Of a stretch of DNA of 64,000 nt, positions 20,560 to 61,959 are shown in pieces. The notes under the pieces were generated by a model, which was given only the letters and a program-made list of their open reading frames with translations, was not told where the DNA came from and did no database searches. The stretch lies in the NCBI GenBank assembly GCA_014378765.1, contig JACMNA010000133.1:1-64000 (forward strand). The letters are read 5' to 3'. Position 1 is the stretch's first letter, and each line of letters starts with the position of its first letter. This DNA comes from Bdellovibrio sp. (GTDB lineage: Bacteria; Bdellovibrionota; Bdellovibrionia; Bdellovibrionales; Bdellovibrionaceae). The translations under genes and the position numbers were made by a program.

Positions 20560-21168
20560 TTAGGCTTTTGACAGTTTCAATTGTTCTTTTGTTAAAGTAA
20601 CGACTCCAAGTTCATTCAATTTCTCGCGCGCGAGCTCAGACCCTGTGCGCAAATAGCGGTCATACAGTCGTAAAACATCTTGGTCCGACTGTACTTGCGA
20701 TTTTTCGCTTATGTAATTAAGAACTTCGACGTAATCCAGAAATCTTTTCGAAAACGTTTCAAACACCGAAGCCATTGTGTCTTGCCGGCTCCAGTTTGAA
20801 AGATTCGAATACGCGGCTGAGCCTATTTCAATATAGTAATCAATATCAACAACTTTTCGATTCAGCGAATCGGCAAAAAAGCCGGTTAAATAAAGCGACC
20901 GGTCAGCCACAATCCGCATAAGTTCACGGTTCTTAGATGAATCAGAACTTATAGCCTGTAAGTACATTTCGGCGAAGGTGTCGAGCGTTTTCGTTGTTGA
21001 ATCTTCTTGAATTGGTTGATGAAAATTTCGTGAATCTAAATAATGTTTTAAAAGCTGGACTAAATAAACTTCAACGTGCGGCTGAGTCTTAACTTGCCGC
21101 TCATGGCAGGCTTCTTTGACCACTTCTGTAAAATGTTCTTCAGGCGAGATAAACACAAAAGATTTCAT
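20560..21168 (-). CDS. Conserved-looking unknown protein, 202 aa, in the tat operon
   Basis: I do not recognise the family with certainty. It is a soluble, all-helical-looking protein without signal peptide or membrane span. Residues 1-60 carry EEHFTEVVKEACHERQVKTQPHVE in pieces, and the C-terminal LTKEQLKLSKA is basic. Start ATG with GAGGTG about nine bases upstream. It is the first gene of a co-directional unit with tatB and tatC, so a role with Tat export or its substrates is possible, as is chance co-location. It diverges from the CpaF gene. Confidence 0.7.
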   Translation of the reverse strand: MKSFVFISPEEHFTEVVKEACHERQVKTQPHVEVYLVQLLKHYLDSRNFHQPIQEDSTTKTLDTFAEMYLQAISSDSSKNRELMRIVADRSLYLTGFFADSLNRKVVDIDYYIEIGSAAYSNLSNWSRQDTMASVFETFSKRFLDYVEVLNYISEKSQVQSDQDVLRLYDRYLRTGSELAREKLNELGVVTLTKEQLKLSKA

Positions 21169-21270
21169 TTTGAGACACCTCAGTCGTTCTTCTTTATTTT
21201 ATCGGTTTTTTTATGGTTCTGCTTAAAAAAAAGTTCGACCAAGTACTAGTTGCGACTTAAGGCTGGTCTA

Positions 21271-58572: not shown

Positions 58573-58905
58573 TTAAGCTTTTGGAATATACGAAGCGCCT
58601 TCGAACACAACACCTTCTTCAATCTTTAGGCTGGGAGTTGTTACGGTTCCGCGAAAATTTGCAGGCGGAATCATGACCACTTTACTGTGCGCAATGATAT
58701 TGCCCTCGAATTGTCCTTTTAATATGACATAACTGGCTTCAACTTCGGCTACAACTTGAGCCGTTTCGGAAATAATTAATTGATCGCGAGTGAAAATCTC
58801 GCCCTTAAACTGACCTGCGATTTTTGCAGTTCCGCTGTATGAAAGGCGGCCCTCGAAAGAGCTGCCTTCTTCAATTAAGGTGGAAACAATCGATTCTTTT
58901 TCCAT
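58573..58905 (-). CDS. Bactofilin (polymer-forming cytoskeletal protein)
   Basis: Beta-helical filament protein. The 110-aa protein has the bactofilin core of Gly-rich strand repeats: EGSSFEGRLSYSGTAKIAGQFKGEI (in pieces) and GQFEGNIIAHSKVVMIPPANFRGTVTTPSL (in pieces). It follows parB with a one-base overlap and precedes the atp operon. In several bacteria bactofilins organise ParABS or cell-wall machinery, so a role in chromosome segregation or shape is plausible. Confidence 0.92.
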   Translation of the reverse strand: MEKESIVSTLIEEGSSFEGRLSYSGTAKIAGQFKGEIFTRDQLIISETAQVVAEVEASYVILKGQFEGNIIAHSKVVMIPPANFRGTVTTPSLKIEEGVVFEGASYIPKA

Positions 58906-59876
58906 TACGATTTTAGCTTTTCGTAGATTTGCGTAAGCTGTTCATCAGAATAGAAATTAATTTCTACTTTGCCTTTGCCAGACTTATAACTAATCTCCAC
59001 TTTTGTGCCTAAAGCTTTTTGCAATTGATCGGCTAATTCTTTTGCCAACTTTGATGCGATATCTATATTAATACCGACTTGTTTAGCTTTAGCTTGATTT
59101 TCATTTACATCAAAAGCCTGCGCTTTAATTTCTGCTTCGATAGCGCGCACAGACAAACCTTTTTCAAACGCTTTTTTGGCTAGAGCAATCTGTTTTGTTT
59201 TGTCCGTTAATGATAAAAGTGCTTTTGCATGTCCAACACTAATTTTTTTAGCAGCTAACATTTCTTTTAGTTCATTCGGTAAAGATAAAAGTCGAATAGC
59301 ATTGGCAACGGTAGATCTTTCTTTTCCAACCTTATCCGCAACATCTTGTTGAGAAAGGCTAAATTCTTCCATCAACCGCTGATAACTATCAGCCTCTTCA
59401 ATTGGATCTAAATCTTCGCGCTGAACGTTTTCGATTAAGGCAATTTGCAAAGCTTCACGATCGGTAATCGTCTTGATAATTGCCGGCACCTCGTGAAGTC
59501 CGGCCATTTGGGCCGCACGCCACCGGCGCTCACCGGCGATAATTTCAAACCCGCCGCCATTTCTTTTGCGAACTGCAATTGGCTGAATAATTCCGTTTTC
59601 TTTAATCGAAGTGGCTAGCTCCTCTAAAGATTCTTTTTCAAAGTTTTTTCTTGGTTGGTAAACACCCGGAACTAGTTTATCAATCGCAATATGCCAGATT
59701 CTTTGTTCGTTAGGAATTTCTGCTGTTGGGGGAGGGGCAGATGTTTTAGCTGGTTTATTGTTTTCAATTTGTTCCACTGGTTGATTGTTAAACGCATTCG
59801 CTTCAGCTCCGCCAAGTAACGAGCCAATTCCCCGGCCTAAGCGCTTTTTGTTTTGATTATCTTTATTTGTTTCCAT
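58905..59876 (-). CDS. parB: Chromosome-partitioning protein ParB
   Basis: CTPase that binds parS and spreads along DNA. The 323-aa protein begins with KKRLGRGIGSLLGG (the ParA-contacting part), has the GERRWRAAQMAG (CTP-binding C-motif region, about 117-128), the helix-turn-helix SLSQQDVADKVGKERSTVANAIRLLSLP (in pieces) near 175-202, and the C-terminal dimerisation domain. It is nine bases after parA and shares one base with bactofilin. Confidence 0.96.
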   Translation of the reverse strand: METNKDNQNKKRLGRGIGSLLGGAEANAFNNQPVEQIENNKPAKTSAPPPTAEIPNEQRIWHIAIDKLVPGVYQPRKNFEKESLEELATSIKENGIIQPIAVRKRNGGGFEIIAGERRWRAAQMAGLHEVPAIIKTITDREALQIALIENVQREDLDPIEEADSYQRLMEEFSLSQQDVADKVGKERSTVANAIRLLSLPNELKEMLAAKKISVGHAKALLSLTDKTKQIALAKKAFEKGLSVRAIEAEIKAQAFDVNENQAKAKQVGINIDIASKLAKELADQLQKALGTKVEISYKSGKGKVEINFYSDEQLTQIYEKLKS

Positions 59877-59885
59877 TAGTTACCT

Positions 59886-60698
59886 CTAAATTTCTGCCTG
59901 CTTGTTTGCTTCTAATTCAGCTTTTTTAGCTTGTGACGTGCGCTCAACAAGTTCTTTCGCTAATTCTAAGTACATAAGTGCGCCGATAGATTTTGCATCG
60001 TATCCAAAAATGGATACTCCGTGGCTAGGCGCCTCGCTTAGTCTTACGTTTCTTGGAATAACGGCGTTAAATACTTTTTCTTTAAAATGCGCCCTGATTT
60101 CATCAACAACTTGATGGCCTAAATTATTTCGCTTATCAAACATTGTTAATAAGATTCCTTCGATATGCAAATTTGGATTTATACTTTTTTTGACTAGCCC
60201 AGCAGTATTCAAAAGTTGGCTTAAGCCTTCAAGCGCATAGTATTCACACTGCAAGGGCACTAAGAAGCTATTAGCCGCCGCTAAAGAGTTCAAAGTTAAA
60301 AGACCCAGCGAGGGTGGACAATCAATCAAGATGTAGTCATAAAGGGCGGCAACTCCAGAAATTGCGTTCTTTAATCGATATTCGCGCTGGGGCATATCAA
60401 CAAGTTCAATTTCAGCCCCGACAAGGTCGGGGTTTGCGCTGGCGACCCATAAATTTTTTGTTGAGCTTTGAAAAACAACTTCCTGAAGTGTCTTTTCTCC
60501 AATTAGCACGTGATAGATATTCGCATCTTGAGTTTCGTGCTTCTTAATGCCTAGTCCGCTCGATGCATTTCCTTGCGGATCCATGTCGATGACCAATACT
60601 TTATGGCCCATTTGAGCCAAGGCGGCCGATAGGTTAACGGTGGTCGTTGTCTTTCCGACGCCACCCTTTTGATTTGATATACTGATGATTTTTATCAT
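59886..60698 (-). CDS. parA: Chromosome-partitioning ATPase ParA
   Basis: Walker-type ATPase that moves ParB-parS complexes. The start is ATG 60698, eight bases after AGGAGG; an upstream 17-codon extension has no site. The deviant Walker A KGGVGKTTTTVNL lies at about 10-22, with DMDPQGNASSGLG near 40-52 and the DCPPSLGLLTLNSL motif. At 270 aa it is the chromosomal (Soj) type. The parB gene follows by nine bases. Confidence 0.95.
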   Translation of the reverse strand: MIKIISISNQKGGVGKTTTTVNLSAALAQMGHKVLVIDMDPQGNASSGLGIKKHETQDANIYHVLIGEKTLQEVVFQSSTKNLWVASANPDLVGAEIELVDMPQREYRLKNAISGVAALYDYILIDCPPSLGLLTLNSLAAANSFLVPLQCEYYALEGLSQLLNTAGLVKKSINPNLHIEGILLTMFDKRNNLGHQVVDEIRAHFKEKVFNAVIPRNVRLSEAPSHGVSIFGYDAKSIGALMYLELAKELVERTSQAKKAELEANKQAEI

Positions 60699-60749: not shown

Positions 60750-60781
60750 GTATTATTTCAGTTTTGTTCACCTTTTACCGA

Positions 60782-60797
60782 TGTTCTACGTGGAACA
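60782..60797. promoter_or_regulatory. parS-like site before the lipoprotein gene
   Basis: TGTTCTACGTGGAACA matches the perfect parS at 61244 except for one base (T instead of C at position 6). It is a ParB-binding candidate located between parA and the divergent lipoprotein start at 60801. Confidence 0.7.
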
Positions 60798-60800
60798 CTC

Positions 60801-61298
60801 ATGAAATACCTATTAATTGTGCTTTTATTTAGTTTTTTAGCCGCATGCGATAAGAATGATCCTACGCCGGAGCTTTCTGACGATATCTATAAGGACTATG
60901 TTGAAGAGTTCGAAATATCGAATCGAGAGCTAGAGTCGACACAAAAAGAATACAATAAACTTTTAATCGAAAAAACGAAGGCTGTTCCGCAAACGGGACA
61001 AATAAAGTTTGTTCAAAAGAAAATTTATGACTCTGAACGACAGATTAATACTCTGAAACAACAAAAACAGTTTTTCGAGATAAAAATCGAACTGCGCCGA
61101 GATCTCGCTCGCCAGCGTGCTTTAGAATCACAGCATGGTGGCCGACCTTGGCCAGATGTCGCCGAAATTGCGACCTATAAATCTTCCATCAAATTTCAAC
61201 GTGATAAGCTGGCCTGGGACAAAAACAAAGGTATGAAAAAAAATGTTCCACGTGGAACAAGCGCCACTGGCGAAGCGCCAAAAGCGGCCGGGCATTAA
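60801..61298 (+). CDS. Coiled-coil lipoprotein carrying a parS site
   Basis: A 165-aa lipoprotein with signal peptide ending LAAC (Cys 16), followed by a long Lys/Glu/Gln-rich helix (about 25-105) likely to form a coiled coil and a basic C-terminus containing NVPRGTS. No known family. It is opposite in direction to the flanking parA and rsmG genes. The perfect parS is encoded in its last third as NVPRGTS. The ribosome-binding site before ATG 60801 is only a weak GGA within the upstream parS-like site. Confidence 0.75.
   Translation: MKYLLIVLLFSFLAACDKNDPTPELSDDIYKDYVEEFEISNRELESTQKEYNKLLIEKTKAVPQTGQIKFVQKKIYDSERQINTLKQQKQFFEIKIELRRDLARQRALESQHGGRPWPDVAEIATYKSSIKFQRDKLAWDKNKGMKKNVPRGTSATGEAPKAAGH
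61244..61259. promoter_or_regulatory. Perfect parS site inside the lipoprotein gene
   Basis: TGTTCCACGTGGAACA is a perfect 16-base palindrome of the bacterial parS form, a few hundred bases from parAB and the rsmG-mnmG genes. Confidence 0.92.
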
Positions 61299-61305
61299 AA
61301 ATAAG

Positions 61306-61959
61306 TTAGGCAATCCTTTCAGTCTTAACGATATACATTTTTATTTCTGAGCCTTCCAAAGTATATTCACCCTCAAGACTTGGTTGCCAAACAGAGCAAA
61401 GTTGCGTGGGAATTTGCGAAACCTCAACACTCCACTCCATGCCTTTTAAGTGAAATATTATGCCTTTGCTTTTCACAATTTTACGCAACATTAATAACGA
61501 CTTGGGCAGCGGGGCGAAACCACGGCAAATAGCCTGGTGAATTGAGCCCTCATCCATCAAATCAACTTTGCGGTTATGAACTGCAATATTCAATAATTTA
61601 AGAGTATCGATAACGTGTTTTAAAAACTCACATTTGCGCTCATCCGTGTCGATCAAAATAATTTTCTGCTCAGGAAACAGGATGCCGTAAACCAACCCAG
61701 GAAAACCGTTGCCGCTACCAAGATCATGTAAGATTTCGTTTTTATTCACATTTTTTGAAACAATTTTACATGCGTGAATACTGTCTGCAAAATGAGTCGA
61801 GTCAGCGTTTTGAATTCCCTTTGCCGAAACTAAATTCACAACCTTATTAAATTTCAGCAATTCAGCAAAGTAGGCCTTCAATAAAATTTGTTTTGGCTCG
61901 TCGATTTCTGGAAACCAGGTTTTGATTCTCCAGTTAGGAACTACCTTAGCATCGCTCAA
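61306..61959 (-). CDS. rsmG: 16S rRNA (guanine-527 N7) methyltransferase RsmG
   Basis: SAM-dependent methyltransferase that modifies G527 of 16S rRNA. The 217-aa protein has the SAM-binding motif ILHDLGSGNGFPGL (about 82-95) and the family's RGFAPLPKSL region (about 150). It is nine bases after mnmG and lies at the end of the mnmE-mnmG-rsmG unit; it converges with the parS lipoprotein gene. Length and motifs are standard for GidB. Confidence 0.94.
   Translation of the reverse strand: MSDAKVVPNWRIKTWFPEIDEPKQILLKAYFAELLKFNKVVNLVSAKGIQNADSTHFADSIHACKIVSKNVNKNEILHDLGSGNGFPGLVYGILFPEQKIILIDTDERKCEFLKHVIDTLKLLNIAVHNRKVDLMDEGSIHQAICRGFAPLPKSLLMLRKIVKSKGIIFHLKGMEWSVEVSQIPTQLCSVWQPSLEGEYTLEGSEIKMYIVKTERIA

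Follow-up and report, generated by a model that had tools for sequence, protein, structure and literature searches.

Why should a lone gene, read against its neighbours, stand between rsmG and parA at a bacterial centromere, and why should a parS site lie at each of its ends? The question is raised by the window, a 64,000-nucleotide stretch of DNA from Bdellovibrio sp. (contig JACMNA010000133.1, positions 1 to 64,000), in which the minus strand carries parA, parB and rsmG and a plus-strand lipoprotein ORF, here called lip, lies between parA and rsmG.

The centromere locus and its lipoprotein gene

The parB gene (58905..59876, minus strand) encodes a protein with the ParB_N (E 2.6e-37), HTH_ParB (E 2.7e-37) and ParB_C (E 3.9e-9) domains, and the adjacent parA (59886..60698, minus strand, from an in-frame ATG) matches AAA_31 (E 4.7e-68); a longer form of parA with a TTG start, reaching 60749, appears in the ORF listing. 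The KorB domain (PF08535) scored below its cut-off on this ParB (17.1 vs 22.3 bits), which thus does not qualify as KorB-type. Downstream of parB lies a bactofilin-type gene (58573..58905, minus strand), recognized by its ORF and by sharing the position of bd3904 of B. bacteriovorus, a bactofilin homolog (PMC10547168). The lip gene (60801..61298, plus strand) starts with ATG, encodes 165 aa, and is the orthologue of bd3907 by position and sequence. It is divergent from parA and convergent with rsmG (gidB; 61306..61959, minus strand; GidB E 8.7e-34). That a lone plus-strand lipoprotein gene splits rsmG from parAB, as the initial annotation had it, is confirmed by the ORFs, the domain matches and the lipobox described below.

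Near parAB occur two 16-bp palindromic parS sites, which are rare in the genome: a search at up to two mismatches returned two matches in the whole 2.87-Mb assembly, both at lip, and none for a reversed-pattern control. The B. subtilis-type parS pattern found the same two sites alone within the window. With adjacent parA and parB genes and these sites, the segment qualifies as a chromosomal parABS centromere, that of a predator of the Pseudobdellovibrio type, a name borne by near relatives of the same genus (L110 and L115). parS1 (60782..60797) reads TGTTCTACGTGGAACA, has one mismatch, and overlaps both the -10 element and the expected transcription start of lip. parS2 (61244..61259) reads TGTTCCACGTGGAACA, is perfect, and falls within codons of the variable C-terminal tail of lip, where its in-frame reading is N-VPRGT-S. 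A perfect parS in the lipoprotein coding sequence and a near-perfect one before its start had been noted initially, and the pattern search recovered both; the other sequence details given then were also correct, except that the gap between parS1 and the ATG is 3 nt and not 4 bp. The pair is not due to chance, because parS occurs at the corresponding two positions in relatives. Binding of ParB to parS has been demonstrated in vitro with B. bacteriovorus components (PMC11318664).

Two further features of the sites were noted. The asymmetric parS1 variant of the window is kept by most of its genus, with the altered half-site facing the promoter, and the half-site GTGGAAC might serve as a ribosome-binding site, a role that its position would suit where parS1 lies close to the ATG. 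parS2 is followed on the rsmG strand (61244-61259, minus) by eight T residues and scores like an intrinsic terminator, and in the window it might also end the rsmG transcript. A role for parS2 as a general terminator was rejected, as the T-run of the window is not consistently found among relatives.

The lip product begins with a 15-aa signal peptide (60801..60845, plus strand), predicted from the sequence, which precedes the lipobox cysteine, Cys16. Its N-terminus, MKYLLIVLLFSFLAAC followed by DK, has a typical lipobox, LAAC in the window. Cys16 is invariant in 45 aligned homologues, where other residues are near-invariant, and all 111 homologues have G, A or S at the -1 position of the lipobox, as lipoproteins do. 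The predicted fold is a helical hairpin (mean pLDDT 91.7), and the protein is accordingly modelled as a periplasmic helical hairpin. Searches of Pfam and NCBIfam gave no family over the cut-off, and comparison with PDB sequences and folds gave no known relative, generic coiled coils being the only matches across all these searches; no homologue was found on plasmids. Many homologues end in a C-terminal histidine (GH or HH; 61290-61298 in the window) despite the variable tail.

It had been suggested that the lipoprotein might physically link the origin region to the envelope. The lipobox, present in essentially all homologues, and the genomic neighbourhood agree with such a tether, but an exported lipoprotein would need a membrane-spanning partner to reach the DNA, and no such partner was found. 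Moreover, the residues at +2 of the homologues are mixed and provide no clear sorting signal, and the fold has no relative that would indicate such a function. A predicted periplasmic hairpin with no route to DNA lends the suggestion no support, and we regard it as very improbable. The bactofilin encoded next door would be a more natural scaffold than the lipoprotein.

Conservation of the gene and of its flanking sites

When the 144 class genomes were searched with a lipoprotein profile, 121 gave a match, two of which (G082 and G128) have marginal E-values and may be chance matches; the matching genomes belong to 58 of 69 genera, which are non-independent samples. Outside the class, with 291 genomes sampled across the phylum, there were three matches, all marginal and inside longer ORFs. 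As judged from these homology searches, the lipoprotein arrangement is class-wide and absent from the other classes of the phylum. Among the 110 loci with an assignable lip start, parS lies at most 60 nt before that start in 97, near the stop in 100, and at both places in 90. The two sites are separated by 403-712 bp (median 545), and parA is divergent from lip at every locus where its position was readable. The comparison of related genomes proposed in the initial annotation has thus found gene, place, orientation and the two sites conserved together.

At some lip loci, including those of G044 and G119, parS1 or the promoter could not be recognized. In G044 and G037 (loci L154 and L155) the lipoprotein gene adjoins parA and no parS was found within two mismatches; the centromere sequence of these two genomes may differ from the parS pattern. 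In G037, a GTTCTACGTAGAACA stretch occurs just upstream of the lip promoter.

The exact location of parS2 depends on the lineage. In most genera it lies outside the lip coding sequence, in a short gap after the lip stop and between the convergent stops of lip and rsmG; in some lineages it lies inside rsmG, and the window's own genus is characterized by a parS2 within the lip coding tail, read in frame as VPRGT. This variation argues that the hosting of parS in a coding sequence is incidental. The lip-rsmG gap measures only 16-18 bp in ten genomes and is essentially parS2 itself. Both convergent stops abut parS2 in G014, G022, G079, G084-G086, G108 and others, where the intergenic region is the 16-bp site.

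Genomes of the class lacking lip are mostly of 1.2-2.4 Mb. In most of the loci examined from these genomes and from other classes, parS lies within the rsmG-parA gap or adjoins it, and no gene separates rsmG from parA; since the site persists there, it does not need the lipoprotein gene. In one lip-less locus (L098 of G129, about 1501-2232), rsmG is seemingly inverted with respect to parA and has a perfect parS on either side, such as the flipping of a parS-bounded segment would leave.

These data bear on the initial proposal that the gene owes its fixed place to carrying the segregation site. Class-wide co-occurrence of the gene and the sites is in line with it, but the reduced lip-less genomes and the other classes keep parS at the gap, parS2 stays outside the ORF in most genera, and the invariant lipobox cysteine and other conserved residues would be needless in a mere spacer. 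We consider this explanation improbable, if somewhat less so than the envelope tether.

A FliA-type promoter overlapping parS1

Attack-phase promoters attributed to FliA have the form TTAAG-N16-CCGATA (PMC3627812). Related elements, omitted from the initial account of the locus, precede lip in the window: a -35 element TTCAG (60757..60761, plus strand; 4 of 5 positions) and a -10 element CCGATG (60778..60783, plus strand; 5 of 6), which runs two bases into parS1. Genome-wide, single-mismatch matches to the motif are only modestly more frequent than those to a reversed control, and the promoter assignment rests for this reason on conservation and not on motif matching. When upstream regions were aligned on the CCGA tetramer, T(T/C)AAG appeared at a fixed distance corresponding to the published 16-nt spacer. 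In a test anchored only on the CCGA upstream of lip, TTAAG (at least 4 of 5) occurred at this spacer in 31 of 57 genera, and in five genera at most for each of the other spacer lengths in the range 10 to 23; in 2000 shuffles the count averaged 3.0 and peaked at 9. A motif score of at least 8 of 11 was reached by 90 of 109 lip upstream regions, as compared to 12 of 109 shuffled regions and 7 of 109 when the interval was read on its other strand. Beside the parS of lip-less genomes the motif was seen in one weak case out of 23, and it therefore goes with the gene rather than with parS.

The conserved elements make the lip promoter a candidate of the FliA (sigma28) attack-phase type, whose TTAAG-N16-CCGATA motif recurs across the class. 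FliA itself is encoded in the window's genome (274 bits vs a curated cut-off of 189.6); the protein is nearly universal in the class, so that its presence is uninformative with regard to the loss of lip. By the usual promoter geometry, transcription of lip would start inside parS1. The lipoprotein is thereby predicted to be an attack-phase envelope protein, which need have no role in segregation. No conserved FliA-type promoter pointing into parS2 was found, and a weak excess of the motif on the rsmG strand lies within the rsmG coding region.

Elsewhere in the window, a perfect TTAAG-N16-CCGATA (21200-21226, minus strand) precedes an ORF at 20560-21168 that is divergent from a CpaF-like ATPase gene, and the orthologous gene pair of a relative (G002) also has the promoter motif. 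In another genome (G018), the motif is borne by a gene which we take to be FliL-like.

The position of parS1 relative to the promoter follows two registers: the site starts +4 to +7 nt from CCGA in 38 genera, and in six other genera (families f2, f3, f8 and f11) it abuts the -35 element, at which it ends. In both registers, ParB bound at parS1 would cover promoter DNA. As CCGA touches parS1 in most of the 38 genera, the tetramer might instead be no promoter element but additional sequence recognized by ParB at parS1. This is hardly probable: CCGA is not common to the flanks of parS2 or to lip-less parS sites, and in families f3, f8 and f11 it stands at least 20 nt from parS1, still ahead of lip and with its spacing to the -35 element unchanged.

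The main rival explanation involves no regulation at all. An ordinary attack-phase gene would have come to lie between rsmG and parA at an early stage of the class, confining parS to the remaining non-coding gaps, and the overlap with the promoter would be a by-product of crowding. Crowding is real, as parS2 often takes up the whole gap between the convergent stops, in the ten genomes mentioned above, and as only a short gap, as a rule of about 85-130 bp, separates parA from lip. It does not demand, however, that parS1 keep its +4 to +7 register in 38 genera, nor that a second register should also touch the promoter; simple crowding hardly accounts for a contact that is kept while the register shifts. 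Even without selection, two overlapping footprints imply steric competition. We hold this explanation to be possible but clearly less likely than a regulatory role for the overlap. Gene, sites, promoter motif, register, conservation and the presence of FliA are all directly observed.

Proposed promoter competition and known systems

The reading preferred here is that parS1 is probably also an operator, at which FliA-RNA polymerase and ParB exclude each other. In Bdellovibrio, parAB is not transcribed in the attack phase and ParB is low (PMC10547168), while FliA promoters are on (PMC3627812). With FliA active and ParB scarce, the polymerase would then fire lip and keep ParB off parS1. In the growth phase, ParB would load at the two parS sites found at either end of lip, and the gene would be silenced while the centromere works. 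From the arrangement of the locus we infer the timing of expression, the competition and the silencing, and the same applies to any role of the lipoprotein itself.

Operator function at parS1 would bear on a published puzzle, the exclusion of ParB in the attack phase. DNA flanking parS1 was found to stop ParB clustering in the attack phase, in Bdellovibrio only and not in E. coli; a parS2 fragment likewise blocked clustering, and an unnamed factor specific to Bdellovibrio was proposed to prevent ParB from occupying its sites in this phase (PMC10547168). FliA-polymerase at the lip promoter could be the factor acting at parS1, and the overlap provides a concrete candidate for it. Promoter competition fits the block by the parS1 flank, does not explain the same effect of the parS2 fragment, and explains the E. 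coli result only loosely, because E. coli has its own FliA.

A broader proposal, which we put forward tentatively and with somewhat less than even confidence, is a two-way life-cycle switch: in hunters that are not replicating, FliA-RNA polymerase would free parS1 of ParB, and at the start of replication lip would be silenced by the loading of ParB. If this holds, the published attack-phase block of ParB would be at least partly an effect of promoter competition, and a chromosomal centromere site would double as a developmental operator. The class-wide bd3907 lipoprotein family also gains a predicted window of expression.

Among known systems, the closest is parABS of B. bacteriovorus, whose published map (bd3908-bd3907-bd3906-bd3905, that is bd3908-bd3907-parAB) resembles the window in gene order, in the lone gene between rsmG and parA, and in having two parS, with bd3907 given as an unknown protein (PMC10547168). 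The locus of B. bacteriovorus strain kdesi (L113) has the same order and two parS. The window's genus differs in that parS2 lies inside the coding end of lip and parS1 carries a mismatch. The layout is thus not new, but its extent across the class and the nature of the gene, a lipoprotein, are; the published study mentions neither FliA, the word lipoprotein, nor a promoter overlap (PMC10547168). With the FliA/sigma28 attack-phase promoters of Bdellovibrio, the lip promoter shares the -35 element, the 16-nt spacer and the -10 element, and differs from them in being overlapped by a centromere site (PMC3627812). KorB of plasmid RK2 is a ParB-family sliding clamp that also represses, and as such may serve as a model for the silencing of lip by ParB; KorB is plasmid-borne and acts with KorA, unlike the ParB of the window (PMC11790492). 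Compared with these systems, the overlap of a FliA-type promoter with a centromere site is the new element of this locus.
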